From positions 1 to 35,850 of the forward strand of contig JAKPOP010000025.1 in the NCBI GenBank assembly GCA_029547805.1: DNA of 35,850 nt, written 5' to 3'. The translations under genes and the position numbers were made by a program. Position 1 is the first letter of the stretch; every line of letters starts with the position of its first letter. The notes beneath the pieces were generated by a model, which saw only the letters and a program-made list of their open reading frames with translations, did not search any database and was not told where the DNA came from. Origin of the DNA: Deltaproteobacteria bacterium (GTDB taxonomy: Bacteria; Myxococcota_A; UBA9042; DTJE01). Of the stretch, positions 7,238 to 24,230 are shown piece after piece.

Positions 7238-7255
7238 CACCCCGTCAACGGGGTG
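7238..7255 (-). terminator. GC hairpin at end of radical SAM operon
   Basis: Perfect 7-bp stem (CACCCCG and CGGGGTG) with a 4-nt loop. The loop contains the TGA stop of the last gene of the operon. There is no T-tract after it, so it may be a 3'-end stabilising structure or a non-canonical terminator rather than a classical intrinsic one. Confidence 0.4.
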
Positions 7256-8438
7256 GGAGCCGATCCCCCGGGGCCGGGACGGACGGACGGACGAGGTCCG
7301 GGGCGCACCCCGAGGGGGCCGGGCCGGTCCGGAGGGTCGCCAGGATGTCCCGGAGGCGACCCTGAACGATGTCGCCAACCGGTCGGGGCAAGAAGGGGCA
7401 GGCCCGCACCTGCCCCAGGGGATTGGCATAGATGAACTGGTGCCCCCCCACACACCCCCGAGGGGCCTCCCAGACCGCCGCGGACCAGGCCAGGGGACGA
7501 GGACGGGCGCCCCGGTTGTTCCGGGCCATCAGGCTCTCCAGGCGGGCATGCTCGGCGGGGGTCAACCCGAAGCGGCCATGAACGGCCGCCCCGCCGCTCG
7601 GATGGGCCGGGAAGAAGTTCACGAAGTGCACCCCCAGGTCCCCGACGAAGTCCAGATAGCGGTCGAAGCCCTCGGGGTCCAGGACCTCCGGCCCCACCAT
7701 GCAGTCCACGCTGGCCAGCAGGCCCACCTGCACGGCGGCCCGCAGGGCCGACACGGCGACGTCGAAGGCCCCGGGGTTCCCCTTGCTGCGGGCCACGGTG
7801 GCCGCATCCCGGCCGTCCAGCGAGACGATCACGCCCGCCAGGCCCCCTTCGGCCAGTCGGGCCAGCACCTCCCGGTCCGCCCGGTGGCCCGTGGTGACCA
7901 GGAAGCACCGCAGGCCGGCCTCCCGGGCGGTTCGCACCAGGACCGGCAGGTCCTCGACCCGCATCAGGGGCTCCCCCCCGGTGAAGAACACCGCCCGGGC
8001 GCCGGCCTCGGCCAGGTCCCGGACCGCCTGGACCAGGGCCTCGAGGGGCACCGCCTCCTCGGGCCCGAGTTCCGGCAGGGCGTAGCAGTGGGGGCACCGG
8101 TAGGGACACCGGCTGGAGACCGAGAGGAGGCCGAACAGCAGCGGCAGCGGTCGGCCCTCGGCGATGGCCATCACCTCCTCGGCCACGAGGTCGGGGAAGG
8201 AGGGGTCGTTCAGGGGTGGCATCGCGGTGGCCGCGAAGACCTCCCCGTGCCGGGACCGGACATAGCGCCCGGGGCCGCCCCGCAGGAGGTTCCGGGGGCT
8301 CCGGAGGTAGTCCCGGAAGGCCCGACCGAAGGCTGCCGGCCCCGCCCGAGCCACCCCCCGGGCCAGCAGGGCCCCGACGATCCGGGCCTCCAGCAGGGCC
8401 TTTTCGGTGCCGGTGACATACCGCACGGCGTCATCCAT
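7245..8438 (-). CDS. Radical SAM protein with SPASM-like tail
   Basis: 397 aa, last gene of the eight-gene minus-strand operon. The radical SAM cluster motif is C111-PYR-C115-PH-C118, followed by the SAM-binding FFTGGEPL at 152-159. An N-terminal helical stretch of about 100 aa precedes the barrel. The C-terminal part (RGCVGGHQFIYANPLGQVRACPF, then a further GCAPD) has the spacing of a shortened SPASM/twitch region that could hold an extra Fe-S cluster. Such enzymes usually modify peptides or small molecules by carbon-radical chemistry. The ATG at 8438 follows GGAGG and overlaps the end of the upstream gene by 8 nt. No close functional relative recognised; related in layout to its upstream neighbour. 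The substrate is unknown. Confidence 0.85.
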   Translation of the reverse strand: MDDAVRYVTGTEKALLEARIVGALLARGVARAGPAAFGRAFRDYLRSPRNLLRGGPGRYVRSRHGEVFAATAMPPLNDPSFPDLVAEEVMAIAEGRPLPLLFGLLSVSSRCPYRCPHCYALPELGPEEAVPLEALVQAVRDLAEAGARAVFFTGGEPLMRVEDLPVLVRTAREAGLRCFLVTTGHRADREVLARLAEGGLAGVIVSLDGRDAATVARSKGNPGAFDVAVSALRAAVQVGLLASVDCMVGPEVLDPEGFDRYLDFVGDLGVHFVNFFPAHPSGGAAVHGRFGLTPAEHARLESLMARNNRGARPRPLAWSAAVWEAPRGCVGGHQFIYANPLGQVRACPFLPRPVGDIVQGRLRDILATLRTGPAPSGCAPDLVRPSVPAPGDRLPPR

Positions 8439-9618
8439 CGCGGCCCTCCGGCTCCGGGACGCCGAGGACCCGGAGGGCCCCGGGGCTCAGCACCTGGACC
8501 TCCGACCGGTGCCGGGCCACGAAGTCCCGCAGGAACGCGGGGTCCGTGAAGAACTGGCAGTGGAGCCGTTCCCCCCGGGCCTCGGCCTCCCGGTGGCGCT
8601 CCCGGAGGGCCCGGTAGAGGGGATCGTCCCGGAAGGCCTCCCACAGGGGCCTCTGGTGGATGTTCGAACCGCTCATCCCCAGGGCCACCGCCGGACAGGG
8701 GGCCAGGGTCCCGTCATGCCAGACCGTCAGGCTGAAGACCCCCGCCGGGCAGGCCGTCAGGCGCTGCTCGATGCCCAGGAGGTCCATCACCGCCAGGCGC
8801 CCCAACTGCCGGTTCAGGGCCATGGCCCGGTCGAAGAGGGCCTCCCGACGCCCGGCGTCCAGCACCAGGTCGAAGTCCCCCTTCGGGTCCACCGGGACGT
8901 AGGGGACGTAGGCCACCAGCCAGGCCCCCTGGGCCTCGAGCCACCGGAGGAACGGAAGGGAGGTCACCTCGTCGTGGTTCTCCCGGTGGATCATCGTGGT
9001 GACCAGGAAGGGAACCTTCCGCTGCCGGAGTCCCACCATGAGGCCCTGCTGGGCCTCGAAGGCCCCGGGGCCCTTCCGGCGGTCGGTGGTCTGCCCCAGG
9101 CCGTCGATGTTCAGCACCGGCACGATGTTCCCGGCAGCGGCGATCCGGTCCAGGTGCCCCGCCCCGACCCGCCGGCCCTCGGTGAACAGCAGGAAGAACT
9201 GCCCCCGGTGCCGCGCCAGCAAGGCCAGCAGGTCGTCGGCGTCGGCCCGGTAGAAGGGGTCCGCCCCCATCAGGTACACCTGGGTGATGCCCATGGCCCG
9301 GGCCTCGCCGAAGAGGCGGTCCAGGTCCCCCAGGGACAGGCGGCTGCGGTGATCGGCGAACCCGAGGAAGGTGCAGTGGGCGCACCCGGCCCGGCAGGCC
9401 ACATCGTCCACCACCTGCAGCGTCACCGGACTCGGCACCCCGTCCCGCCGGGCCCGAAGACGGGCCGGAATGCCCTGGCGCAGGCCGATCCACCAGGCCT
9501 GCCAGCCGGCCCGCCAGGTCGCCCGACTGGCCCCGAGGGATCGCCGGGCCAGGCGCCAGAGGATCGGCCCCATCACCCGGTAGTACCGAAAATCCGTTCG
9601 ATAGTTCCGAACGAACAT
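8431..9618 (-). CDS. Radical SAM protein with SPASM-like tail
   Basis: 395 aa. The first 60 residues are rich in Arg and Trp and could be an amphipathic, membrane-touching segment (MGPILWRLARRSLGASRA and WRAGWQAWWIGL). The cluster motif is C75-RAG-C79-AH-C82. The usual GGEP is replaced by a degenerate MGADPFYR, as in several SPASM-type members. The C-terminal region has CPAGVFSLTVWHDGTLAPCP, the cysteine spacing of a SPASM-like auxiliary cluster, followed by a typical 'NIHQRPLWEAF' turn. The start follows GGGAGG. The upstream gene ends 9 nt before, and the downstream gene overlaps by 8 nt. Substrate unknown; the position in the operon suggests a tailoring step after the cobalamin-type enzymes. 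Confidence 0.85.
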   Translation of the reverse strand: MFVRNYRTDFRYYRVMGPILWRLARRSLGASRATWRAGWQAWWIGLRQGIPARLRARRDGVPSPVTLQVVDDVACRAGCAHCTFLGFADHRSRLSLGDLDRLFGEARAMGITQVYLMGADPFYRADADDLLALLARHRGQFFLLFTEGRRVGAGHLDRIAAAGNIVPVLNIDGLGQTTDRRKGPGAFEAQQGLMVGLRQRKVPFLVTTMIHRENHDEVTSLPFLRWLEAQGAWLVAYVPYVPVDPKGDFDLVLDAGRREALFDRAMALNRQLGRLAVMDLLGIEQRLTACPAGVFSLTVWHDGTLAPCPAVALGMSGSNIHQRPLWEAFRDDPLYRALRERHREAEARGERLHCQFFTDPAFLRDFVARHRSEVQVLSPGALRVLGVPEPEGRDG

Positions 9619-9627
9619 GCGCCTCCC

Positions 9628-10950
9628 TCAGAAGATGTTGGGCGGCACCCGGCGATAGACGTAGCGCCGGTAGTGCAGGTTCACCACCAGGGCGAAGAGG
9701 TGCATCAGGGGCCTCTTCCAGAAGTCCCACCGGAAGACGACCCGCCGGAGGATGCTCCTCCAGGAGAAGACCCGCCGGTTCAGCCACCAGTAGAGTTCGG
9801 TCAGCCGGTCCGGGTCGATGCGTGCCGGGCGGTGGACCGCCGTGGACCCGTCGTAGCGGCGCCAGTCCTCGGTGATCAGCCGCCCCTCGTCGCGCATCTG
9901 CTCGTAGAGGGGCGTCCCGGGCATCGGCGTCAGGATGTAGAACCGGGGGATGGGAACCCGGGTCCGGTCGATGAAGTCGGCGGTGGCCCGGATGCTCTCC
10001 TCGGTGTCCCCGTCGGTGCCGACCATCATCTCCGTCGAGGGCATGATGCCCGCCTCGGTGATCCGCCGGAGCAGGGACTCGTGGTCCTCCACCTTGAGCC
10101 AGTCCTTCCGGAGCCGGTCGAGGCCCTCCTGGGTGATGCTCTCGAGGCCGAAGGACATCAGGTTGCAACCGCTTCGCCGGACCCGGTCCAGCAGCCGGGG
10201 GTTCCGGGCCAGTTGCAGGCTGCACTGGGAGGACCACTCCATCTTCCAGGGGGTGATGGCGTCGCAGAAGGCCTCCAGGAACCCCGGGTTCGACACGATG
10301 TTGTCGTCCAGCAGGAAGAACTTCCGAAACCCCAGTTCCCGGATGCGCCGGATGTCCCGGAGGACCTCGTCCAGGGGCCGGGCCAGATAGCGCCCCTGGT
10401 AGATGCAGGCGATGCTGCAGAAGGAGCAGAGGTGGGGACAGCCCCGCCCCGCCTGGACCGGCAGCCGGTCCCCGATGGGCTTGCTCGTCAGCAGTTCATA
10501 GCGGGGGACCGGCAGCCCCGCGAGGCTGGTCACGGGGTTCCGGTAGATCGGGTCGATCCGCCCGGTCCGTTCGAAGTCCTGCAGCAGCCGGGGGAAGGAG
10601 ACCTCGCCGTCGCCGACCACCACCGAGTCCACGTGTTCCAGCACCCGCTCGGGAACCAGCGAGGCCATGTAGCCGCCCATGAACACCGGTCGCCCCCGGC
10701 GCCGGAACTCCTGGGCGATCTCGATGCCGCGCCAGGTGGCGTAGCCCATCGTCCCGATCCCCACCAGGTCCACGTCGGCGTCGAAGTCGATGTCGTCCAC
10801 CACCTCCAGCCGGACGTCGATCTCCCAATGTCGGGGGGCCAGGGCCGCCAGCAGCGGAAAGGCCAGTCCCGGCAGGAAGATCCGTCGCTGCTTGCACAAC
10901 TTCCCGCCCCGGTCGTACTGGGTGGGCTGGATCAGCATCAGTCTCGGCAT
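9628..10950 (-). CDS. B12-binding-type radical SAM enzyme
   Basis: 440 aa. The N-terminal cobalamin-binding-like Rossmann domain covers residues 1-130 (LMLIQPTQYDRGGKL, DLVGIGTMGYATWRGIEIA, PVFMGGYMASLVPE, SVVVGDGEVSFPRLL). The radical SAM barrel follows, with C171-PHL-C175-SF-C178, then the RPLDEVLRDIRRI and FFLLDDNI segments and the late GLESITQEGL and MVGTDGDTEESI motifs. Enzymes of this build often methylate unactivated carbon or phosphorus, or make C-C bonds. The ATG at 10950 overlaps the previous gene by 13 nt and has GGAGG 10 nt before it; the longer open frame upstream is a shadow of that gene. The C-terminal helical tail is basic and aromatic (YRRYVYRRVPPNIF), as in lipid-acting relatives, but the substrate is unknown. 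Confidence 0.87.
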   Translation of the reverse strand: MPRLMLIQPTQYDRGGKLCKQRRIFLPGLAFPLLAALAPRHWEIDVRLEVVDDIDFDADVDLVGIGTMGYATWRGIEIAQEFRRRGRPVFMGGYMASLVPERVLEHVDSVVVGDGEVSFPRLLQDFERTGRIDPIYRNPVTSLAGLPVPRYELLTSKPIGDRLPVQAGRGCPHLCSFCSIACIYQGRYLARPLDEVLRDIRRIRELGFRKFFLLDDNIVSNPGFLEAFCDAITPWKMEWSSQCSLQLARNPRLLDRVRRSGCNLMSFGLESITQEGLDRLRKDWLKVEDHESLLRRITEAGIMPSTEMMVGTDGDTEESIRATADFIDRTRVPIPRFYILTPMPGTPLYEQMRDEGRLITEDWRRYDGSTAVHRPARIDPDRLTELYWWLNRRVFSWRSILRRVVFRWDFWKRPLMHLFALVVNLHYRRYVYRRVPPNIF

Positions 10951-12347
10951 CGGGCACGGGCCTCCGCCAGTTTCTTCCGGTACTGCCGATCCACCAGGGC
11001 CGTGCCCCGGATCATCTTCCAGATCATCCGGGGGGACCGGCGCCGGTGAGCCCAGAGGGCCTGGGGATGGAACAGGACCCGCCAGTAGAGCCGGATCAGT
11101 TCTTCGTAGAACTCCGCCTCGGTCAGCCGTTCGGGGCGGATCATCACGTGGGCCAGGTCCCACCGGGGGAAGTCCGACCGCGGGACCAGCAGCCGGTCGG
11201 GGTCCACCTCGATGCCGGTCCCCGGGAGCGGCGTCAGGGGCTGGAGGTTCACGAACCGCACGCCCAGGGCCCGGAGGCGTTCCCCGCACCGCTGAAACTC
11301 CTCCCGTCCCCAGGAGGCCGGGAGGATCATCGTGGCATAGCATTCGACCCCGTGGCGGTTCAGGACCGCCATCGCCTCCTCGTTGACCCCCGAGGAGGTC
11401 CCCTTCCGGAAGAGGTCCAGGTCCCGGTCCAGGAAGGACTCGAACCCCACGATGACGGTCCGGAGCCCGGCCTCGCGGAACTCCCGGATGACCTCGGGGT
11501 TCTGGGCGATGAAGTCCGCCCGGCCATAGACCAGGTAGTGCTTCCGGAGGCCCCGGGACCGGACCCCGGCGATGAAGGCCCGCACCCGGTCCGCGGTCAC
11601 CAGGAAGTCGTCATCGACGATGTAGACCTCCTGCTGATCGATTCCCTGGAGTTCGTCCAGCACCTCCTCCAGGGGGCGCTCCCGGTAACGATCCCCGGTG
11701 ATTCGCCGGCAGAAGCAGAAGGTGCACCGGTAGGGGCACCCGAAGGAGGTCTTCAGCAGGGCCACCCGGTCGTGGAAGATGTAGAAGTAGCGGTCCTGAT
11801 AGTGGCGGGTCAGGGACCGATCCGGCAGCGACCAGGCGAAGTCGAAGGGTGGGAGCCGGGCGGGGTCCGCCGACTCCCCGGGCTGCAGGACCCCCGGGGG
11901 CACCTCACCCGCCCCCTCGGCCACCAGGCGCAGCAGCCGGGGCCAGGCCGACACGGCATTGCGCACGACCCGGAACTGCACGTCGGGGTGGTCCAGGTCC
12001 CCGGGTACCACCTCGCAGTGCACGCCACCCACCACCGTGACGATCCGGTCGTCCCGGACCCGGGCCCGATGGCAGGCGTCGATCATGGCCGGGACATTGG
12101 TGATGTAGCCCGTCACCCCCAGCACGTCGGGCTTTTCCCGAGCCAGGAAGGCGTCCAGGCCCTCCCGCTCCAGCGTCAGGTCCACGACCCGGACCTGGTG
12201 CCCCTCCCGTCGGCAGATCCCCCCGAGGACCTCCAGTTCCAGCGGCTCCACCAGCATCACGTGCTGCAGCCCGATCGTCTCGGGGTCCGGTCGGGGCCGG
12301 ACCAGCAGCACCCTCAGGGGACGCCCACGAGGTCGAAGGGTCGTCAT
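10938..12347 (-). CDS. B12-binding-type radical SAM enzyme
   Basis: 469 aa. The cobalamin-binding-like domain covers about residues 10-140 (LRVLLVRPRPDPETIGL, PDVLGVTGYITNVPAMID, VTVVGGVHCEVV). The radical SAM motif C204-PYR-C208-TF-C211 is followed at once by F-C213, then RYRERPLEEVLDEL and the acidic VYIVDDDFL segment. It is clearly paralogous to the gene at 12974-14425: same CxxxCxFCFC signature, same EPLELE segment near residue 37, same late PLPGT motif. The ATG at 12347 overlaps the methyltransferase stop as ATGA. The classical DxHxxG cobalamin-ligand motif is not visible, so cobalamin would bind base-off without that histidine, as in other members, or not at all. Confidence 0.86.
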   Translation of the reverse strand: MTTLRPRGRPLRVLLVRPRPDPETIGLQHVMLVEPLELEVLGGICRREGHQVRVVDLTLEREGLDAFLAREKPDVLGVTGYITNVPAMIDACHRARVRDDRIVTVVGGVHCEVVPGDLDHPDVQFRVVRNAVSAWPRLLRLVAEGAGEVPPGVLQPGESADPARLPPFDFAWSLPDRSLTRHYQDRYFYIFHDRVALLKTSFGCPYRCTFCFCRRITGDRYRERPLEEVLDELQGIDQQEVYIVDDDFLVTADRVRAFIAGVRSRGLRKHYLVYGRADFIAQNPEVIREFREAGLRTVIVGFESFLDRDLDLFRKGTSSGVNEEAMAVLNRHGVECYATMILPASWGREEFQRCGERLRALGVRFVNLQPLTPLPGTGIEVDPDRLLVPRSDFPRWDLAHVMIRPERLTEAEFYEELIRLYWRVLFHPQALWAHRRRSPRMIWKMIRGTALVDRQYRKKLAEARARCRD

Positions 12348-12970
12348 GGCCGAACTGCCTCGATCAACCGTAGCGATGCCATGCCCGGCAAGGTCGGGAT
12401 CGGCCGGATCGCCACCGGGCGCCACCCGGCCTGCTGCATCCAGCCCCGGACCCGGGCCGAGGGGGCGTAGTTCGCCGGCCCGGTGGTGACCTTGACGGCC
12501 CGGAGCAACAGGGCATCCCAGCGATTCTCGGTGCAGGCCTGGGCCAGCAGGATCCCGCCGCCAGGGCGTACGACGGCCCGCAGACGCCGCAGAAAGTCCA
12601 CCGGGTCCTCCACGTAGGGGAAGGCGTGGGTGGTCACCACCAGGTCGAACGGGGGGGCCCCCGGGACGTCCTCGACCCGCCCCTCCCGGTAGTCGATCCG
12701 GGGGTGGGGCCGGTCCCGCCGGGCCACCGCGATCATCTCCGGGGAGGGGTCCACGGCCGTCACCACCATTTCGGGGAACCGCTCCACCAGCGCCAGGGCC
12801 AGCTGGCCGACGCCGCATCCCATGTCCAGCACCCGCCGGGCCCCGGACCAGTCCTCGGTGACGCGCCGGATCACGAACTCCCGGGTCGGCCGGAGGCTGA
12901 TGGGCTGCACCGGCAGCCAGGCGTAGCGGCGGGCATAGAGACTCCAGGCCTGTCCTCGGCGAAAGATCAT
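12344..12970 (-). CDS. Class I SAM-dependent methyltransferase
   Basis: 208 aa. Class I Rossmann methyltransferase with motif I VLDMGCGVGQLALAL (about 47-61), the acidic residue ending beta2 (VTAVDPSPEMIAVAR), the FDLVVTTHAFPYVEDP motif and the VVRPGGGILLAQ motif. Methyl is transferred from SAM to an O, N or activated C position of an unknown small molecule. The start at 12970 has GGGAGGGG upstream, 3 nt after the end of the preceding gene. The stop overlaps the next B12-type radical SAM gene. Within the operon it is the only conventional methyltransferase, so it probably acts on the same substrate as its radical SAM neighbours. Confidence 0.87.
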   Translation of the reverse strand: MIFRRGQAWSLYARRYAWLPVQPISLRPTREFVIRRVTEDWSGARRVLDMGCGVGQLALALVERFPEMVVTAVDPSPEMIAVARRDRPHPRIDYREGRVEDVPGAPPFDLVVTTHAFPYVEDPVDFLRRLRAVVRPGGGILLAQACTENRWDALLLRAVKVTTGPANYAPSARVRGWMQQAGWRPVAIRPIPTLPGMASLRLIEAVRP

Positions 12971-12973
12971 CTG

Positions 12974-14425
12974 TCACCCCTCCCTGCCGTCCGGCAACGG
13001 GCCCCACCGGGCCAGGGCCCACAGGAACCGCCCCCCCACCTGGACCGCCGAGGCCGTGGCCCGAAGGGCCCCCAGCGTTCCGTAGCGTCGTCGCATGCCC
13101 TCGAAGGCCTTCCGGTCCCGGGCCGGCCCCAGGTAGAGACGGAACAATCGCAAGTAGTATCCCCAAGGCGACAGGAAAAGGGGAGGCCGGTGGAGGCGCA
13201 GCAAGTCGTAGCGCCAGCCGGATGCCGGGACGTCCCGGTCCGAGGCACCCTTCTCCCGGGCCAGCCGGGTCCCCGGCAGGACCGTCAGGGTGCTGAAGGT
13301 GGCGAAGGTGATCCCCCACTCCCGCACCTGCCGCTCGAGGCGGTCCAGGCGATCAGGGGGCCAGTCCGGGTCCACCACGAAGAGCCCGAAGACCTCGATG
13401 TCCAGTTCCCGGCAGACCCGGAGGCACTCCCGGGCATCGGCGACCCGGGACCGCTTGTCCACCGCCGCCAGGTCCTCGTCCTCGACGAACTCGAACCCCA
13501 CGATCACCCCCGTCAGGCCGGCCTCCCGGAGGGCCCTCATCACGTCGGGATGCCTTGCCACGAAGTCCGCGGTGCCATAGCAGAGGAAGGACAGGCGTTC
13601 CTGGAGCCCCCGCTGCCGCACCCCCCGGGCGAACTCCAGCACCCGGGCAGGATGCGTCAGGAAGTTGTCGTCCAGCAGGAAGATGGTTCGGGCCCCCCGA
13701 ATGGATTCGATCTCGTCCAGCACCCGGGAGACGGGCCGGGGCCCGTAGCGCCCCTGGTGCTGCTCGGTGCAGAAGCAGAACGAACAGCGGTCCGGGCACC
13801 CGAAGGCCGTCTTGACCACCGCGCACCGGTCCATCCACAGGTAGTGCCAGCGCGCCGGATCGGCCTCGAAGCGACTCCGCCGCGGCAGGGGCAGGGCCGC
13901 CGGGTCCAGGGTCGGTCCCGGGTTCACCCGCCACGCCCCAGACTCGCCGGGGGCCGGCGGAAAGGCCGCCCCCGGGAGGTCCTCCCAGGGCCGGCCGTCA
14001 GCGATGCGCGCCAGACACTCCCGGATGCCGGTCAGGGCGTCGGCGAAGAAGACCCCGTCCACCCCCGGCGCGAAGAAGTGCGATGGACAGACCTCGGCGT
14101 GGGGCCCCCCGACGAAGACCCGGGGGGGCCTCGGCAGGGACCGGAGGGCGGCGGCCCATTCCCGGATCGAGGGGACCGAGGTGATGAAGCCCGTGAACAG
14201 CACCACGTCCGGCGCCAGGCGCCGGGCCACCGTGACCGGGTCCCCCCGGTCGGTCATGCCGTCCCAGATCAGGACCTCATGGTCCGGGGCGAGCACCGTC
14301 TCCAGGTACTCCAGTTCCAGGGGCTCGGTGAGGATCCAGGCCCGCATGTCCAGCGTCTGGGGCGCCGGGGGCGGCCGGACTGCCAGCACCCGGAGCCGGC
14401 GCCGGGCCGACATCGACGACATCAT
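12974..14425 (-). CDS. B12-binding-type radical SAM enzyme
   Basis: 483 aa. The cobalamin-binding-like domain covers residues 10-140 (LRVLAVRPPPAPQTLDM, PDVVLFTGFITSVPSIREW, PRVFVGGPHAEVC). The radical SAM motif is C210-PDR-C214-SF-C217-F-C219, followed by GRYGPRPVSRVLDEI and FLLDDNFLTHPARV. Later come GVIVGFEFVEDEDL and TVLPGTRLA, common to this enzyme class. The C-terminus is aromatic and basic (SPWGYYLRLFRLYLG). The ATG at 14425 overlaps the previous stop as ATGA; ATGs at 14422 and 14413 are alternatives. It is a paralogue of the gene at 10938-12347. Likely chemistry is radical methylation at unactivated carbon or a rearrangement; the substrate is not known. Confidence 0.86.
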   Translation of the reverse strand: MMSSMSARRRLRVLAVRPPPAPQTLDMRAWILTEPLELEYLETVLAPDHEVLIWDGMTDRGDPVTVARRLAPDVVLFTGFITSVPSIREWAAALRSLPRPPRVFVGGPHAEVCPSHFFAPGVDGVFFADALTGIRECLARIADGRPWEDLPGAAFPPAPGESGAWRVNPGPTLDPAALPLPRRSRFEADPARWHYLWMDRCAVVKTAFGCPDRCSFCFCTEQHQGRYGPRPVSRVLDEIESIRGARTIFLLDDNFLTHPARVLEFARGVRQRGLQERLSFLCYGTADFVARHPDVMRALREAGLTGVIVGFEFVEDEDLAAVDKRSRVADARECLRVCRELDIEVFGLFVVDPDWPPDRLDRLERQVREWGITFATFSTLTVLPGTRLAREKGASDRDVPASGWRYDLLRLHRPPLFLSPWGYYLRLFRLYLGPARDRKAFEGMRRRYGTLGALRATASAVQVGGRFLWALARWGPLPDGREG

Positions 14426-15435
14426 GCCGCCCCCCCGTGGACGAAGGGGTGCGCCGGGGGCACGACCCGGCGATACTCCAGCCAGGGTCGGCCCCGGCGG
14501 ACCAGCCACCGGACCGCCGCGGACCGGTGCCACCCGAACATTCGCCGATCCCGGCATCGGCCCCCCAGGCGCATCTTCGGCACCTCAGCGGTCTGGCCCA
14601 GGTCCAGCCATCGGACCCCGTCGTCGATGGCCTCCCGGAGGATCGCCACCAGCAGGTTGAAGTAGGTGGCCCGGGTCCCCAGGGTCCGGTAGTCCACCCC
14701 GCCGAAGAGGAACCATCGCCGAGGGCCCTCGGTCCAGGCCACGTGCCAGGCCACCAGGGCCTCGCCGTCCCGGTGCACGGACAGATGGCACTCCCGGGGC
14801 AGGCCCGTGAAGAAGGCCGGCTCCAGGCGCTCCAGGCGCCCCTCACTGCGGCGCCAGACCTCCTGGTAGAGGTGGTGCATCGGCCCGGTATAGGCCCCAC
14901 AGGGAAGCCGCTCGGTGGAGACGCCCTTCCACCGGGACAGGACCCGCCCCAGCCGCCGCCGATAATCGGACCGGAGGGCCTGCCGGTACTCCGAAAACGA
15001 CCGCCAGGGAACCTCCATCTCCACCGAGGGCAGGGTCCGACCCCAGGTGCCTCCGGAGACCGGGAATTCCCGATCCAGGTTCAGGCCCACCACCAGCCCC
15101 CGTTCCCGGGGAAGACACGCGGCCACCAGGTCCCGGATCCCGTCGGGGTCGCCCAGGACCCCGGGGGACCCCACTGATACCGGCAGCCCCAGGATGGTCA
15201 TCCGGACCGGACTCGGAAGCCCCAGGAAGGTCAGGAGGTCCAGCCGCAGGTCGTAGGCCACCGCCCCGGCCCGGATCCGCCCGTCTTCATGCCACTCCCA
15301 GTAGCGCTGACCGCAGGGGTTGACCGTTTCCAGATGCCCCAGGAAGGCCCGCCGCTGGAAGGGGGTCGCCGCCAGGGCATCCCACCCCTCATCCAGGTCC
15401 CCGGACCGGGCCACTGGACGCAGCACGGCGGTCAC
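14422..15435 (-). CDS. FemAB-like GNAT transferase
   Basis: 337 aa. Resembles the GNAT-fold, FemAB-like transferases (Acetyltransf_6/BioF2-like), which move acyl or aminoacyl groups onto amines. An N-terminal half (DEGWDALAATPFQRRAFLGHLE, a GLPSPVRMTILGLPVS segment) is followed by the C-terminal GNAT repeat: HLSVHRDGEALVAWHVAW, FLFGGVDYRTLGTRATYFNL, AILREAIDDGVRWLDLGQTAEVPKMRLGGR. The start is GTG at 15435 with GAGGGGG upstream; it overlaps the stop of the previous gene as GTGA, and no ATG suits. In family members the donor is acyl-CoA or aminoacyl-tRNA; which applies here is unknown. Its place at the head of the operon beside a second GNAT protein suggests substrate conjugation. Confidence 0.8.
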   Translation of the reverse strand: MTAVLRPVARSGDLDEGWDALAATPFQRRAFLGHLETVNPCGQRYWEWHEDGRIRAGAVAYDLRLDLLTFLGLPSPVRMTILGLPVSVGSPGVLGDPDGIRDLVAACLPRERGLVVGLNLDREFPVSGGTWGRTLPSVEMEVPWRSFSEYRQALRSDYRRRLGRVLSRWKGVSTERLPCGAYTGPMHHLYQEVWRRSEGRLERLEPAFFTGLPRECHLSVHRDGEALVAWHVAWTEGPRRWFLFGGVDYRTLGTRATYFNLLVAILREAIDDGVRWLDLGQTAEVPKMRLGGRCRDRRMFGWHRSAAVRWLVRRGRPWLEYRRVVPPAHPFVHGGAA

Positions 15436-16529
15436 AGGTCCCCCTCGAAGACGACGTAGTGCCGGTGGGGTTCCAGAGGCTGGCCGAATGCCCGGGCGAT
15501 GAACTTCAGGGTCATGCCCAGGCTTCCCTGGTTCTCCTGAAAGATGAACCCCCCCTCGCAGAACTGGTAGGGTCCCCGCTCCACCGCCTCGATCATCGCC
15601 AGCACGAGGGCCGCCGTGGCGGCACCGCCACGGTGGTCCGGCAGGACCCCGATCTCGGCCAGCCGCACCGCCCGGATGGGATTGCGGAGGCGGTAGCGCA
15701 GCACGTCCCGGACGCCCAGTTCCCGACCCGGGCCCGCCAGCTGGTTGAAGTCCGGATACCACAGGATGAAGCCCACGGCCCGGTCGCCCTCCTCGACGAA
15801 GATCAGGTTCTCGGGCCGGATCAGGAACCGGAAGGGATGGAAGAGCTCGTAGTCCTCCTCCGGGTGCCGGTCGGACCAGTAGAGGTGATCCCGGAAGCAC
15901 CGGTTGTTCAGGTCGGTGTAGAGGGCCGTGTCCCGCTCCAGGTGGCCCATGTCCAGGGGACGCACCCGGTAGGGGCCCGGATCGAAGGCCTCCCGGGCCT
16001 CCCGGGCGAACCGGTAGAAGGGCCCGTTGGGGAAACGGTAGGAGACCATCGGGTGCTGCCGCATCCCGCGCCAGTGGTCCAGCGTTCCGGGCGGATTCCA
16101 GGGAAGCCCGAAGATCGGCGGTTCCTCGAAGCGGCTGCACAGGAAGCCCGCCCCGTAGTTCATGTGGCCCCAGAGGCCGGCGACCAGCATCCTGGCGTCG
16201 GGAAACACCCTCCGGGCCTCATCCCGGACGATGTCCTGCACGCCGTCCACCCCGTCGAGGCACTCGAAGAAGGCCACCATGGCCCGTTCCGGCGCCTGCC
16301 GGTCCTGGACCAGGGCCAGGCGTCCCACGACCTCGGTCCCCCGCCGGACCAGATACGGCCGCACCTCCGCGTGGGTCCGGAAGAAGGTCCGCCCGAAGCA
16401 CAGCATCCGGACGATGCCCTCCTCGGTGGCCCGGTGCTGCGGGTGATGCCGGTGAAGCCGCCAGGGCAGCCGGCAGAATGCCCGTCGCTCGTCGGCGCCA
16501 GACACCGCCTGCAATCCCACGGTCTCCAT
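15432..16529 (-). CDS. GNAT-type acyltransferase, two-domain
   Basis: 365 aa, first gene of the eight-gene operon. The C-terminal part has a GNAT acyl-CoA site (LAEIGVLPDHRGGAATAALV, about 280-300) with a preceding AVGFILWYPDFN strand. The N-terminal part (TFFRTHAEVRPYLVRR, GRLALVQD, FFECLDGVDGVQDI) looks like a second, divergent GNAT-like lobe. The start at 16529 follows AGGAGG; the frame runs on upstream, but through the promoter. It lies 147 nt from a divergent ModE-type regulator. The acyl donor and acceptor are not predictable. Family: GNAT N-acetyltransferase, subfamily not recognised. Confidence 0.78.
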   Translation of the reverse strand: METVGLQAVSGADERRAFCRLPWRLHRHHPQHRATEEGIVRMLCFGRTFFRTHAEVRPYLVRRGTEVVGRLALVQDRQAPERAMVAFFECLDGVDGVQDIVRDEARRVFPDARMLVAGLWGHMNYGAGFLCSRFEEPPIFGLPWNPPGTLDHWRGMRQHPMVSYRFPNGPFYRFAREAREAFDPGPYRVRPLDMGHLERDTALYTDLNNRCFRDHLYWSDRHPEEDYELFHPFRFLIRPENLIFVEEGDRAVGFILWYPDFNQLAGPGRELGVRDVLRYRLRNPIRAVRLAEIGVLPDHRGGAATAALVLAMIEAVERGPYQFCEGGFIFQENQGSLGMTLKFIARAFGQPLEPHRHYVVFEGDL

Positions 16530-16676: not shown

Positions 16677-17087
16677 ATGGCACGAACACCAACGGAACGC
16701 CCTCGGGAGGACCGCGGGCCCCGGGTCCGGGTCCGGGCGTGGATCGAATGGGACGGGGAGACCTTCATCGGACCGGGGCGGGCCCGCCTGCTGGAGGCCA
16801 TCGATCGCCTGGGTTCCATCACCCGGGCGGCCCTGGAGGTCGGGGTCTCCTACCGGACGGCCTGGGCCTGGATCGACCGGATGAACCGGCTGGCGTCGGG
16901 GCGGCTGGTGGCGGCCTCTCCCGGCGGCCGGGGAGGCGGCGGTGCCGTGCTGACCCCTGCGGGGCGAGCGGTGCTGCAGGTCCACCGGCGTCTGGTGCAG
17001 GAAGCGGCGGCCTTCACGGAACGCATGGACCGGGAGGTCCGGGCCATCGGGGCCCGCGGGGAAGCACCTCAGGAATCCTCCTCATAG
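16677..17087 (+). CDS. ModE-type winged-helix regulator
   Basis: 136 aa. Matches the N-terminal DNA-binding domain of ModE/LysR-like winged-helix proteins: GRARLLEAIDRLGSITRAAL, then VGVSYRTAWAWIDRMNR as the recognition helix region and GRGGGGAVLTPAGRAVLQVHRRL, the typical GGxGGG-LT wing. The ATG at 16677 has GGAGG 5 nt upstream. There is no C-terminal molybdate-binding (TOBE/MopB) domain, so it may sense nothing directly or another signal. It is divergent from the radical SAM operon and is the natural candidate to control it. The 3' end overlaps the convergent TrmO gene by 19 nt. ModE-domain proteins lacking the ligand domain are common as small regulators. Confidence 0.85.
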   Translation: MARTPTERPREDRGPRVRVRAWIEWDGETFIGPGRARLLEAIDRLGSITRAALEVGVSYRTAWAWIDRMNRLASGRLVAASPGGRGGGGAVLTPAGRAVLQVHRRLVQEAAAFTERMDREVRAIGARGEAPQESSS

Positions 17088-19158: not shown

Positions 19159-20955
19159 ATGCCATCGCCCAGTCACGAAGGCCCCGATCGCCCCGTTCCC
19201 ATCGCGAGCCTCCGGGACCGCCAGGCCTATCGGGTCCCCCGGCACCCGGCGCCCATCGACCTCTACCTGGACGGCAACGAGGGGTCGAGCCCGCCCATGG
19301 ACCTCCTGGAGGGCCTGTCCGGAAACGGCACGGACCTGCTCCGTCGCTATCCCGACGCCGGGCCGCTGGAGGCCCTGCTGGCGGCCCACTACGGGGTGGA
19401 GCCGGACCGGGTGCTGGTCACCGCCGGCGGCGACGACGCCCTGGAGCGGGCCATCCGGTGCGTGGTCGAACCGGGGCGGGCCCTGGTGGCTCCGGTGCCG
19501 TCCTTCGAGATGCTCGGGCGCTTCGCCCGGATGGCCGGCGGGGAGGTCCGGGAGGTTCCCTGGCCCCCCGGGAGCCCCTTCCCGCTGCAGGAATTCCTGG
19601 CCGTGGTGGACCGATCCGTGGCGGCCATCGCCATCGTGAGCCCCAACAACCCCACCGGGGCGGTGGCCTTGGTGGACCAGTTCCGGGCCCTCGCCCGCCA
19701 GGCCCCCTGGGCGCTGGTCCTGGCGGACCTGGCCTACGTGGAGTTCGCCGACGAGGACCCGACCCGGGACCTGCTGGACCTGCCCAACGTGGTGGTCTTC
19801 CGCACCTTCTCGAAGGCCTGGGGACTGGCGGGACTCCGGGTCGGCCACGCCATCGCCCCCCGGGAGGTGGCCGGCTGGATGCGGGCCGGGGGCCTGCCCT
19901 ACCCCTGCTCCCGGCCCTCCCTGGCCCTGGCCGAGGCCCGCTGGCGCCAGGGGTCCCAGGAGGTCCGGGCCTTCGTGGGCCAGGTCCGGCAGGAGCGTGC
20001 GGCCCTGACGGCACGACTGGCCGACCTGGGCCTCCATCCCTTCCCGGGGCAAGGCAACTTCGTGCTGGTGCGGTGCCCCGACGCGGCCTGGGTCCGGGAT
20101 GCCCTGGCGGGGGTCGGCATCTCGGTCCGGGCCTTCCCGAACCATCCGGACCTCCGGGACGACCTGCGCATCACCTGCCCCGGAGACCCGGCGGCCTTCG
20201 ACCGGCTGATGGCGGGACTGGAGCAGGCCCTGGATCCCCAGGCCCTGCTGTTCGACATGGACGGCGTGCTGGCCGACGTCCGGGACTCCTACCTCCAGGC
20301 CATCGGTCTCACGGCGGCCTCCTTCGGCGTCCCGGTCACCCCGGAGGACGTCGCCCGGGCCAAGGCCCTCCCAGGCCACAACAACGACTGGGTGGCGACC
20401 CGCTGGCTGCTGTCCCGGGCCGGCGTCGAGGTCCCCCTCCAGGAGGTGATCCGACGCTTCGAGGCCCTCTACCAGGGCGACGGCGACCGGGCGGGGCTGC
20501 ATCGGCTCGAGCGGCTGCTGGTGGCGCCGGAGGTCCTGCGGGACCTCGCGGCCCGGCTGCCCCTGGCCGTGGTCACCGGGAGGCCCCGACGGGATGCCCG
20601 GCGGTTCCTGGAAGACCAGGGCATCGAGGACTGCTTCGGGGCCCTGGTGTGCCTGGAGGACGCCCCGGGGAAGCCGGACCCGGCCCCGGTGCGGCTGGCC
20701 ATGGACCGCCTGGGGGTGCAGCGGGCCTGGATGATCGGAGACTCCCCCGACGACATCCGGGCGTCCCGGGCCGCCGGGGTGGTCCCCCTGGGCATCGGGA
20801 CCGAGGAAGACCGGGCGCTGCTGGCGGTCGGGGCGGCCCGGGTGCTGGGGTCGGCCGCCGAGGTCCGGGACCTGCTGGACCGCCTCCCGGGCGGCCCGGG
20901 CCGAGGCGATGGGATCGGGCGGCCAGCAGCCCGGTCCACGGGAGGGACCTCATGA
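19159..20955 (+). CDS. hisC: Histidinol-P aminotransferase fused to HAD phosphatase
   Basis: 598 aa in one uninterrupted frame. Residues 1-360 are a PLP fold-type I HisC: DGNEGSSPP, LVTAGGDDALERAIR, SPNNPTGAV and the PLP lysine K219 in FRTFSKAWGLAGLRVGHA. Residues from about 362 are a HAD subfamily I phosphatase: FDMDGVLAD (nucleophile D366, acid D368), VVTGRPRRDAR, KPDPAPVRLAMDRLG and MIGDSPDDIRASRAAG. No other histidinol-phosphatase (PHP-type HisJ, HisN or HisB N-domain) is encoded in the operon, so this domain may supply that step, giving transamination then dephosphorylation in one chain. That is inference; HAD specificity cannot be read. RBS GGAGGGG before 19159; the stop overlaps hisB as ATGA. 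Confidence 0.92.
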   Translation: MPSPSHEGPDRPVPIASLRDRQAYRVPRHPAPIDLYLDGNEGSSPPMDLLEGLSGNGTDLLRRYPDAGPLEALLAAHYGVEPDRVLVTAGGDDALERAIRCVVEPGRALVAPVPSFEMLGRFARMAGGEVREVPWPPGSPFPLQEFLAVVDRSVAAIAIVSPNNPTGAVALVDQFRALARQAPWALVLADLAYVEFADEDPTRDLLDLPNVVVFRTFSKAWGLAGLRVGHAIAPREVAGWMRAGGLPYPCSRPSLALAEARWRQGSQEVRAFVGQVRQERAALTARLADLGLHPFPGQGNFVLVRCPDAAWVRDALAGVGISVRAFPNHPDLRDDLRITCPGDPAAFDRLMAGLEQALDPQALLFDMDGVLADVRDSYLQAIGLTAASFGVPVTPEDVARAKALPGHNNDWVATRWLLSRAGVEVPLQEVIRRFEALYQGDGDRAGLHRLERLLVAPEVLRDLAARLPLAVVTGRPRRDARRFLEDQGIEDCFGALVCLEDAPGKPDPAPVRLAMDRLGVQRAWMIGDSPDDIRASRAAGVVPLGIGTEEDRALLAVGAARVLGSAAEVRDLLDRLPGGPGRGDGIGRPAARSTGGTS

Positions 20956-22210: not shown

Positions 22211-22962
22211 CCCGGCGGGTGATCCCCTGTCTCGACGTCCGAGACGGACGGGTCGTGAAGGGGGTCCGCTTCCAGGGACTTCGGGACCAGGGGGACCCGG
22301 CGGCCCTGGCACAGTCCTACGAGGCCCAGGGGGCCGATGAAATCGTGATGCTGGACGTCTCGGCCACCCCCGAGGGCCGGCGAACCGCCCTCGAGACCGT
22401 CCGGGCCATCCGGGAGGTCCTCTCAATCCCCCTGACCGTCGGCGGCGGGGTCCGGTCCCTGGCCGACGCCCGGGCCCTGCTGGAGGCCGGGGCGGACAAG
22501 GTCTCGGTGAACACCGCGGCCTTCGAGGACCCGGGCCTCCTCTCGGCCATCGCCGAGGGCCTCGGGCGACAGTGCGCGGTGCTGGCCCTGGACGCCGCCC
22601 GACGGCCCGAGGGGGGCTTCGAGGTCCTGGTCCGGTCGGGACGCCAGCGGACCGGTCGGGACGCCGTGGCCTGGGCCCGGGAGGCAGTGGCCGCCGGGGC
22701 CGGGGAGGTCCTCCTGACCTCCTGGGACCGGGACGGGACCGGCGAGGGCTACGACCTGGACCTGCTGGCGGCGGTCTGCCAGGCCGTGCCGGTGCCGGTC
22801 ATCGCCAGCGGCGGCGCCGACCGGCCCGAGGACCTGGTGGCGGCCTTCCGGGCCGGGGCCGATGCGGTGCTGGCGGCCTCGATCTTCCACGAGGGCCGCT
22901 GGACCGTTGACCGACTGAAGGAACACCTGGCCCGGGAGGGCATCGAGGTGCGACGATGCTGA
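22204..22962 (+). CDS. hisF: Imidazole glycerol phosphate synthase, HisF
   Basis: 252 aa TIM barrel, the cyclase that makes imidazole glycerol phosphate and AICAR from PRFAR. VIPCLDVRDGRVVKGVRF carries D11; the second catalytic Asp is in LALDAARR (about 130). Phosphate-binding segments VGGGVRSLADA, ADKVSVNT, SWDRDGTGEGYD and IASGGADRPEDL are all present. The ATG at 22204 lies inside hisH and the stop overlaps hisA by 7 nt. Partner of HisH, probably made in equal amounts. Confidence 0.96.
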   Translation: MVTRRVIPCLDVRDGRVVKGVRFQGLRDQGDPAALAQSYEAQGADEIVMLDVSATPEGRRTALETVRAIREVLSIPLTVGGGVRSLADARALLEAGADKVSVNTAAFEDPGLLSAIAEGLGRQCAVLALDAARRPEGGFEVLVRSGRQRTGRDAVAWAREAVAAGAGEVLLTSWDRDGTGEGYDLDLLAAVCQAVPVPVIASGGADRPEDLVAAFRAGADAVLAASIFHEGRWTVDRLKEHLAREGIEVRRC

Positions 22963-24230
22963 TTCCATCCATCGACCTCCAGCAGGGGCACGCCGTCCAG
23001 CTGGAGGGCGGCGCGGTGCTGCGGATCGACGCCGGGGACCCCGTTCCCTGGGCCCGGCGGTTCGGGCGGGTCGGGGAGGTTGCGGTGATCGACCTGGACG
23101 CCGCCCGGGGGATCGGGAGCAACCGGGAGGTCCTCCGGTCCTTGCTGCCCCTGGCCCGGTGTCGGGTCGGGGGCGGGATCCGGGACCTGGAGACGGCCAT
23201 CGCCTGGCTGGACGCCGGCGCCGAGAAGGTGATCCTGGGCACCGCGGCGGACCCGGCCCTGATCTCCCGGCTGCCCCGGGAGCGGGTGATCGCCGCCGTC
23301 GATGCCCGCCACGGGGAGGTGGTGGACCAGGGCTGGCAGCGGGGCACCGGCGAGGGACTGCTGCAGCGGATCGACCGGCTGCGCCCCTTCGTCGGGGGCT
23401 TCCTGGTGACCTTCGTCGAGCGGGAGGGGCGCCTCCAGGGGATGGACCTGGAGGCGGTCCGGCAGGTCCTCCAGGCGGCCGACGGGGTCCCCGTGACGGT
23501 GGCCGGAGGCGTCTCCACCCCGGAGGAGGTGGCGACCCTGGACCGGTTGGGGGCCGACGCCCAGGTCGGCATGGCCCTCTACTCGGGCCGGATGTCCCTG
23601 GCCGACGCCCTGTGGGCGATGGTCCGGTCCGACCGCCCGGACGGACTGGTGCCGACCCTGGTCTGCGACGAGGGGGGCGAGGCCCTGGGCCTGGCCTGGT
23701 CGGACCGGGAGTCGCTGGATCAGGCCATCGAGAGCGGCCGGGGGGTCTATCACTCCCGACGCCGGGGCCTCTGGGTCAAGGGCGAGACCTCCGGGGACCA
23801 CCAGGACCTGCTGGCCGTGGACCTGGACTGCGACCGCGACGCCCTCCGCTTCCGGGTGCGGCAGCATGGCCGGGGCTTCTGTCACCGGGGGACCTGGACC
23901 TGCTTCGGGCCGGACCGGGGGATCCGGGCCCTGGCCCGGCGGCTGGCCGACCGGGTCCGGGAGGCCCCCGAGGGGTCCTACACCCGGCGCCTCTTCCAGG
24001 AGCCGGGGCTGCTGGAGGCCAAGATCCGCGAGGAGGCCGGAGAACTGGCGGCGGCCGGGACCCCCGGGGAGGTCGCCTTCGAGGCCGCCGACGTGATCTA
24101 CTTCACGCTGGTGGCGCTGGCCCGGGCCGGGGTCGCCCTGGAGGAGGTCGAGGCCGAGCTGCACCGCCGGTCCCTCCGGGTGACGCGGCGGAAGGGCGAC
24201 GCGAAGCCACCGCCCCCACACCAGGAGTGA
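22956..24230 (+). CDS. hisA: HisA-HisI-HisE trifunctional fusion
   Basis: 424 aa with three enzymes in one frame. Residues 1-225 are the HisA barrel: IDLQQGHAVQL (D7), VGGGIRDLET, AAVDARHG (D116), TVAGGVST; the usual RDG of the catalytic loop is REG (E157). Residues about 229-318 are PRA-cyclohydrolase HisI: YHSRRRGLWVKGETSGDHQ, DLDCDRDAL (D291, C292, D293, D295), FCHRGTWTCF (C309, H310, C316). Residues about 322-408 are PRA-pyrophosphohydrolase HisE: REEAGELAAAG and FEAADVIYFTLVAL. Order of action is E, then I, then A. HisI-HisE fusions are common; HisA at the front is unusual. Catalytic residues of all three parts look intact. The next gene starts 5 nt on. Confidence 0.93.
   Translation: MLIPSIDLQQGHAVQLEGGAVLRIDAGDPVPWARRFGRVGEVAVIDLDAARGIGSNREVLRSLLPLARCRVGGGIRDLETAIAWLDAGAEKVILGTAADPALISRLPRERVIAAVDARHGEVVDQGWQRGTGEGLLQRIDRLRPFVGGFLVTFVEREGRLQGMDLEAVRQVLQAADGVPVTVAGGVSTPEEVATLDRLGADAQVGMALYSGRMSLADALWAMVRSDRPDGLVPTLVCDEGGEALGLAWSDRESLDQAIESGRGVYHSRRRGLWVKGETSGDHQDLLAVDLDCDRDALRFRVRQHGRGFCHRGTWTCFGPDRGIRALARRLADRVREAPEGSYTRRLFQEPGLLEAKIREEAGELAAAGTPGEVAFEAADVIYFTLVALARAGVALEEVEAELHRRSLRVTRRKGDAKPPPPHQE

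Follow-up and report, generated by a model that had tools for sequence, protein, structure and literature searches.

A sporadically distributed radical SAM and acyltransferase cassette of uncultured bacteria, with a possible role in fatty-amide lipid synthesis

What might be made by an operon in which five radical SAM genes are joined to genes for a methyltransferase, a FemAB-fold transferase and a GNAT transferase? Such an operon occupies the minus strand at 7245-16529 of the 35,850-nt stretch of DNA analysed here (the window). All eight ORFs of the original prediction are present, the outer coordinates are the same, and its classes (five radical SAM proteins, one class I methyltransferase, one FemAB-like and one GNAT protein) were all matched by Pfam. 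It had described overlaps of 4-13 nt and gaps of at most 9 nt, in agreement with the measured junctions, which run from -13 to +9 nt. From the first gene onwards these are g8-g7 -4, g7-g6 -4, g6-g5 +3, g5-g4 -4, g4-g3 -13, g3-g2 +9 and g2-g1 -8 nt.

The operon is not a chance arrangement, since another genome of the same genus (G001) keeps all eight genes in order (82-92% identity, dN/dS 0.14-0.30) and a core of the operon is syntenic across phyla. All eight genes are under purifying selection. When the genomes of 84,980 species were scanned, the order GNAT (g8), FemAB (g7), B12 radical SAM (g4), B12 radical SAM (g3) turned up on a single strand in Myxococcota, Cloacimonadota, Krumholzibacteriota and Bacteroidota; it is partly split in Calditrichota, and a divergent version occurs in Lachnospiraceae. 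This cassette is sporadic, being carried by between 1 of 345 and 3 of 80 genomes. The five core families, one of which is absent from the window, have correlated pairwise distances (r 0.77-0.94, Mantel p 0.001).

The core of the operon is g8-g7-g4-g3, and g6-g5 and g2-g1 are optional pairs. Thus, the co-conservation expected of all eight genes was found across phyla for the core, with the two pairs being accessory only, and the idea of one indivisible unit had to be given up in favour of four core genes, two optional pairs and a fifth core gene that is missing here. The methyltransferase gene g5 mostly adjoins g6, which travels with it in some relatives. Only 4 of 24 cassette genomes contain g2; close copies of g1 adjoin it in G001, G214 and G006, and in G296 a weaker g1 homologue adjoins a g8-like GNAT gene.

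The fifth core gene of the relatives, absent from the window's genus, encodes a protein resembling diaminopimelate decarboxylase (DapDC-like). It aligns end to end with the fold type III PLP enzymes LysA and BtrK and retains the GGGF and EPGR motifs, but falls under the LysA cut-off. In 17 of 17 orthologues the lysine that forms the PLP Schiff base is replaced by Met and the catalytic Cys (CESxD) by Thr, and the stacking histidine is also replaced, whereas the LysA paralogues of the same genomes retain CESGD. Because both catalytic residues are replaced throughout, an ordinary decarboxylase is ruled out, and the protein is more likely to be a binding partner or a non-PLP catalytic partner. The ancestral cassette probably had this lysine-less, fold-III PLP-like protein as a ninth gene. 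On a first locus map it appeared to be a mutually exclusive alternative to g1/g2, an idea rejected on finding both in G214 and G006.

The five radical SAM proteins match PF04055 (E 3e-12 to 2e-21), and the CxxxCxxC motif can be read in each. Of the three N-terminal cobalamin domains originally proposed, those of g4 (10938..12347, 469 aa) and its paralogue g6 (12974..14425, 483 aa) score above the PF02310 cut-off, and that of g3 (9628..10950, 440 aa) lies below it (26.8 against 32.1 bits). Two SPASM-like tails had also been proposed; g2 (8431..9618, 395 aa) shows one weakly, at 17.5 bits against a Pfam cut-off of 21.5, and g1 (7245..8438, 397 aa) has no SPASM match in Pfam. The product of g5 (12344..12970, 208 aa) is a class I SAM methyltransferase (Methyltransf_25/11) with syntenic copies in relatives. 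The most conserved core protein is the B12-type g3, with 47-66% identity across phyla, a mean column identity of 71% and an invariant C-terminal PNI(F/L/I) tail; for g4 the identity across phyla is 41-57%.

None of the operon's radical SAM proteins reaches the cut-off of any curated family model. The best model for both g4 (184 bits) and g6 (100 bits) is that of the hopanoid C-3 methylase HpnR (TIGR04367, cut-off 650), which shares their B12-binding and radical SAM architecture but not their acyltransferase partners. The HpnR family modifies lipids. The ladderane-associated B12 radical SAM family (TIGR04072) is similar in that several radical SAM genes are clustered, possibly with a lipid target; g3 matches it weakly (75 bits, cut-off 360), but the operon lacks fatty-acid synthase genes.

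The first gene, g8 (15432..16529, 365 aa), encodes an Acetyltransf_1 protein that is homologous to Escherichia coli YghO along its full length (hhalign 98.9%, E 1.6e-17, 341 columns; HMM match 71 bits). An AF2 model (pLDDT 91) has tandem GNATs as its nearest PDB folds, and its structural neighbours include N-acyl-histidine and N-myristoyl transferases; a PDB sequence search with the g8 profile gave nothing significant. In dihydroceramide synthesis, YghO and CC_1154 are jointly listed as the acyl-CoA N-acyltransferase (PMC9386255). Judged by profile comparison, g8 belongs with these N-acyltransferases, which narrows the chemistry of the operon towards N-acyl or amide formation. It differs from them in that identity is only ~16% and its partners are B12 radical SAM enzymes; neither the operon nor its flanks showed sphingolipid genes (serine palmitoyltransferase, acp, reductase).

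The second gene, g7 (14422..15435, 337 aa, GTG start), encodes an Acetyltransf_6 protein whose AF2 model (pLDDT 91) has a tandem GNAT, FemX-like fold (Foldseek E 2.5e-10). The nearest PDB entries are the aminoacyl-tRNA-dependent enzymes Sbb17/Sba18, FemX and aa-PGS/MprF. These are only ~10-16% identical to g7, and a PDB sequence search with its profile found nothing significant.

We suggest, tentatively and at somewhat less than an even chance, that the operon is this genus's version of a widespread cassette for making an N-acylated lipid (a fatty amide) or a metabolite resembling one. By analogy with CC_1154/YghO, assigned such a role in ceramide formation, g8 would acylate an amine with a fatty acid, and g7 might attach a second group, either aminoacyl or acyl. 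Next, unactivated carbons of the product would be methylated or joined, independently of O2, by the two B12 radical SAM enzymes that are obligatory, g4 and g3; in some lineages g6 and g5 together, and likewise g2 and g1, might add further methylation or oxidation steps. We infer both the product class and the order of the steps. This reading is supported by the conserved core order, the correlated distances of the core families, the purifying selection on all eight genes, the homology of g8 to YghO and its N-acyl-histidine and N-myristoyl transferase fold neighbours, the fold of g7, the nearness of g4 and g6 to HpnR, and two kinds of neighbouring gene. FeeM-like N-acyl amino acid synthase genes lie downstream of the cassette at loci L061 and L067, and MMPL transporter genes precede it at L056 and L067. 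At L061 a phosphatidylserine-decarboxylase-like gene also follows the cassette.

Several observations count against a lipid product. The core contains no acyl-CoA/ACP or head-group gene, the radical SAM likeness to HpnR is distant, the FeeM and MMPL neighbours occur at two loci each only, and tandem-GNAT and FemAB folds are also used in antibiotic and peptidoglycan pathways. Moreover, the pathway of the window's genus may differ from that of the relatives, since the fifth core gene is absent there. A more specific version, in which the product belongs to a new class of bacterial amide lipids and the two dedicated B12 radical SAM enzymes cross-link or cyclise its acyl chains, aided by the lysine-less relative of fold-III PLP enzymes, seems doubtful at present.

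A water-soluble small molecule resembling an antibiotic or cofactor is a rather unlikely product. Here g7 would act as a ligase that depends on aminoacyl-tRNA, like those of streptothricin-type pathways, g8 would transfer acetyl or short acyl groups, and tailoring of the core would fall to the B12 radical SAM enzymes. The best fold match of g7 is indeed Sbb17/Sba18 with streptothrisamine, that of g8 is a tandem GNAT of clavulanic acid biosynthesis, and g3 and g4 have the aminoglycoside radical SAM enzyme AprD4 (6fd2) among their sequence matches. However, by sequence g8 is homologous to YghO, and cyclitol, sugar, NRPS and resistance genes do not recur in the flanks.

Decoration of the cell envelope (peptidoglycan or an aminoacyl-phospholipid), with g7 transferring an aminoacyl group as FemX and MprF do and the remaining enzymes modifying that group, is improbable: the g7 model does match FemX and aa-PGS/MprF, and the diaminopimelate decarboxylase family is the origin of the fifth core gene, but the core lacks a cell-wall synthesis partner, the homology of g8 suggests acylation and the cassette is sporadic. 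RiPP maturation is very unlikely, given that g1 and g2 are dispensable, peptidase or leader-binding genes are absent, and no small ORF is conserved across loci, the recurring ones being high-GC artefacts; in its favour are low-scoring likenesses of g1 to SPASM peptide maturases (StsB, 86 bits, cut-off 625) and of g3 to ApyD (94 bits, cut-off 750). Hopanoid modification, by HpnR-type C-3 methylation and related steps, is favoured by HpnR being the best model for g4 and g6 but can practically be dismissed, as their scores are far under the cut-off and squalene-hopene cyclase (PF13249) is absent from 22 of 23 cassette carriers, including the window's genome unless the gene lies in the few percent missing from the assembly.

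The original prediction of a single undescribed, multistep tailoring pathway is strengthened by conservation far beyond one strain and by the lack of any curated radical SAM family assignment; the hopanoid, bacteriochlorophyll and RiPP matches that might have overturned it received no support. No description of the cassette was found in the literature linking radical SAM enzymes to FemAB, N-acyl compounds, ladderanes or lipids, covered mostly outside subscription journals. Anti-phage defence was rejected, as the PADLOC matches were all of a generic radical SAM or methyltransferase kind and none fell on g7 or g8.

Two obligatory B12 radical SAM enzymes kept in fixed order in uncultured bacteria of several phyla point to an unknown compound class, not a single-strain curiosity. 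Non-methylating chemistry is understood for few B12 radical SAM enzymes (PMC13142503). The PNIF-type tail of g3 and the lysine-less DapDC-like protein are distinctive markers by which the pathway is easily found, and the product can be tested for by comparing carriers with non-carriers.

Rfam gave no match within the window. Upstream of g8, on the plus strand at 16677..17087, lies a short LysR/ModE-N-like ORF (Pfam HTH_1, E 2e-8), a possible divergent regulator of the operon by its position only. G001 has a similar HTH ORF in the same place.

Contig C27 (35,850 b, GC 70.9%) constitutes the entire window, and the genome it belongs to, G000, is 4.08 Mb at 97% completeness. The eight-gene operon noted earlier was confirmed: eight genes, g8 to g1 in transcription order, occupy the minus strand at 7245-16529, neighbours overlapping by up to 13 nt or lying up to 9 nt apart. 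They encode a tandem GNAT (g8), a FemAB-fold protein (g7), three B12-type radical SAM proteins (g6, g4, g3), a methyltransferase (g5) and two further radical SAM proteins (g2, g1). This domain content is as originally described, but the SPASM-like tails are weak (g2 below cut-off, g1 unmatched). None of the five radical SAM proteins reached an NCBIfam cut-off. HpnR was the best match of both g4 (184 bits, cut-off 650) and g6 (100 bits); g3 came nearest to ApyD/BchE/ladderane-type models, and g1 and g2 to SPASM maturases, all below cut-off.

A g4-profile scan of genome contigs, pattern-based and thus missing relatives without the query motifs, identified 20 loci. Their labels, which are those of the submitters of mostly metagenome-assembled genomes, include Myxococcota/Deltaproteobacteria, Calditrichota, Cloacimonadota, Krumholzibacteriia, Bacteroidota, Lachnospiraceae and unclassified. 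In most of these loci GNAT, FemAB, g4 and g3 genes recur in the same order on one strand. The Lachnospiraceae locus (L069) has g8-, g4- and g3-like genes and extra B12 radical SAM genes, and lacks the FemAB gene. With near-copies taken out first, pairwise distances of the five core families (these four and a decarboxylase-like fifth) were correlated (r 0.77-0.94, Mantel p 0.001). That the core genes are inherited together as a genuine unit is near certain. Conservation beyond the strain, the check originally proposed, holds for the core, which keeps its order across phyla, but the eight genes are not one unit, g6-g5 and g2-g1 being accessory. The proposal of a single undescribed pathway is supported for the core, with the corrections that these pairs are optional and that the core has a fifth gene. 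The novelty is at the pathway level: the superfamilies are known, and their combination is widely shared and undescribed in the literature searched, most subscription journals lying outside it.

The best-conserved core protein is g3 (window gene 9628-10950), with 47-66% identity to the window copy outside the window's family. Its C-terminus has an invariant PNI, then F, L or I as last residue, in 18 of 18 orthologues (alignment A7); this unusual tail may be functional. Carriers are rare: of 284 genomes in the window's phylum, 5 have strong g3 matches (E < 1e-200, seed genomes included), and the counts for the phyla of loci L059, L054 and L056 are 1/345, 3/125 and 3/80, respectively. In the g3 tree Cloacimonadota and most Bacteroidota cluster by phylum, Myxococcota are not united, and several deep branches are weakly supported; transfer is thus plausible. 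A divergent related locus in G200 (L085:2420-7783) encodes an overt YghO-type GNAT and FemAB-like, g4-like (36%) and g3-like (40%) proteins, and may represent a second pathway subtype.

In most relatives the fifth gene, of the Orn/DAP decarboxylase family (370-390 aa), lies directly upstream of g8. Whole-genome searches found this cassette-linked, fold-III PLP-decarboxylase-like family (L041:6112-7293 and 16 orthologues, L089-L105) in 17 of 23 genomes at 490-657 bits, and only LysA-grade matches in G000 and its congener G001; the window genus has no copy. Against solved LysA structures the profile places Met at the PLP lysine position (17/17 orthologues). The stacking His position is Tyr in 16 of 17 under the search pattern used, and the remaining orthologue (L056/L099) reads LHLYAGTD in this region (alignment A4). 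CESxD, with the catalytic Cys, is replaced by TYS(R/Q)D in all 17, and LysA paralogues from these genomes still have CESGD. The phosphate-binding GGGF and EPGR motifs are retained. With these three residues replaced, a normal PLP decarboxylase is unlikely.

G001 retains the eight genes in unchanged order, together with TrmO; identity across the eight is 82-92% (dN/dS 0.14-0.30 against G000). In G006, a member of the same family, one contig ends with g8-g7-g6-g5 and another starts with g5-g4, g3 lying ~6.6 kb after g4; g2-g1 are adjacent on a separate further contig. Schlafen-like and SMC-like genes are inserted between g4 and g3; this insertion (L040:2052-6339, Schlafen/AlbA_2 and SMC-like ATPase genes) resembles a small defence insertion. 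The g6-g5 pair is present in the window's family, L060, L053, G214 and L059, whereas g2-g1 form a close pair in four genomes, only within the window's phylum. G214 has every gene of the window's set in the same order, and the fifth gene as well, with a break of at most ~14 kb separating g6 from g5; this arrangement suggests an ancestral order of nine genes, with loss of the first gene in the window genus. Apart from the cassette, the region L147:9254-11479 of G296 holds a second GNAT gene resembling g8 and, immediately behind it, a g1-like radical SAM gene with a stop within the matched stretch; G297 has a similar GNAT with an adjoining g1-like trace.

AlphaFold models of g7 and g8 are confident (pLDDT 91). 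Among solved structures, g7 is closest in fold to the aminoacyl-tRNA-dependent synthases Sbb17/Sba18, to FemX and to aminoacyl-PG synthases, and g8 to tandem GNATs, among them N-acyl-histidine and N-myristoyl transferases. By sequence profile, g8 is homologous over its full length to E. coli YghO; yghO and Caulobacter CC_1154 are listed as the acyl-CoA N-acyltransferase of dihydroceramide formation (PMC9386255). Because of this homology, g8 may use long acyl chains. It would acylate an amine, and g7 would add an aminoacyl or acyl group. Cobalamin radical SAM enzymes methylate in most cases, but BchE, OxsB, HpnJ and PbsB catalyze ring formation or rearrangement, as is proposed for ladderane and tetraether-ring enzymes (PMC13142503); g4 and g3, with B12 and SAM, may thus methylate carbons or join them. 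The accessory pairs would provide further decoration.

Hopanoids were excluded as substrate in 22 of 23 carriers, which have no squalene-hopene cyclase. No short peptide ORF is conserved across loci. Lipid or N-acyl chemistry is favoured by neighbouring genes, each in few loci: FeeM-like N-acyl amino acid synthases downstream (L061, L067), a phosphatidylserine-decarboxylase-like gene (L061), and an AMP-ligase (L069) and MMPL transporters (L056, L067) ahead of the cassette. Tentatively, the product is best read as a fatty-amide lipid or lipid-like compound.

A short HTH gene (LysR/ModE-N-like, 16677-17087) lies upstream of the operon in divergent orientation; found in the same place in G001, it is a possible regulator. 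TrmO and a histidine operon also lie upstream, and the histidine operon contains two fusions (19159-20955 and 22956-24230), one of a HisC-like aminotransferase with a HAD hydrolase and a second of a HisA-type domain with HisI and HisE.
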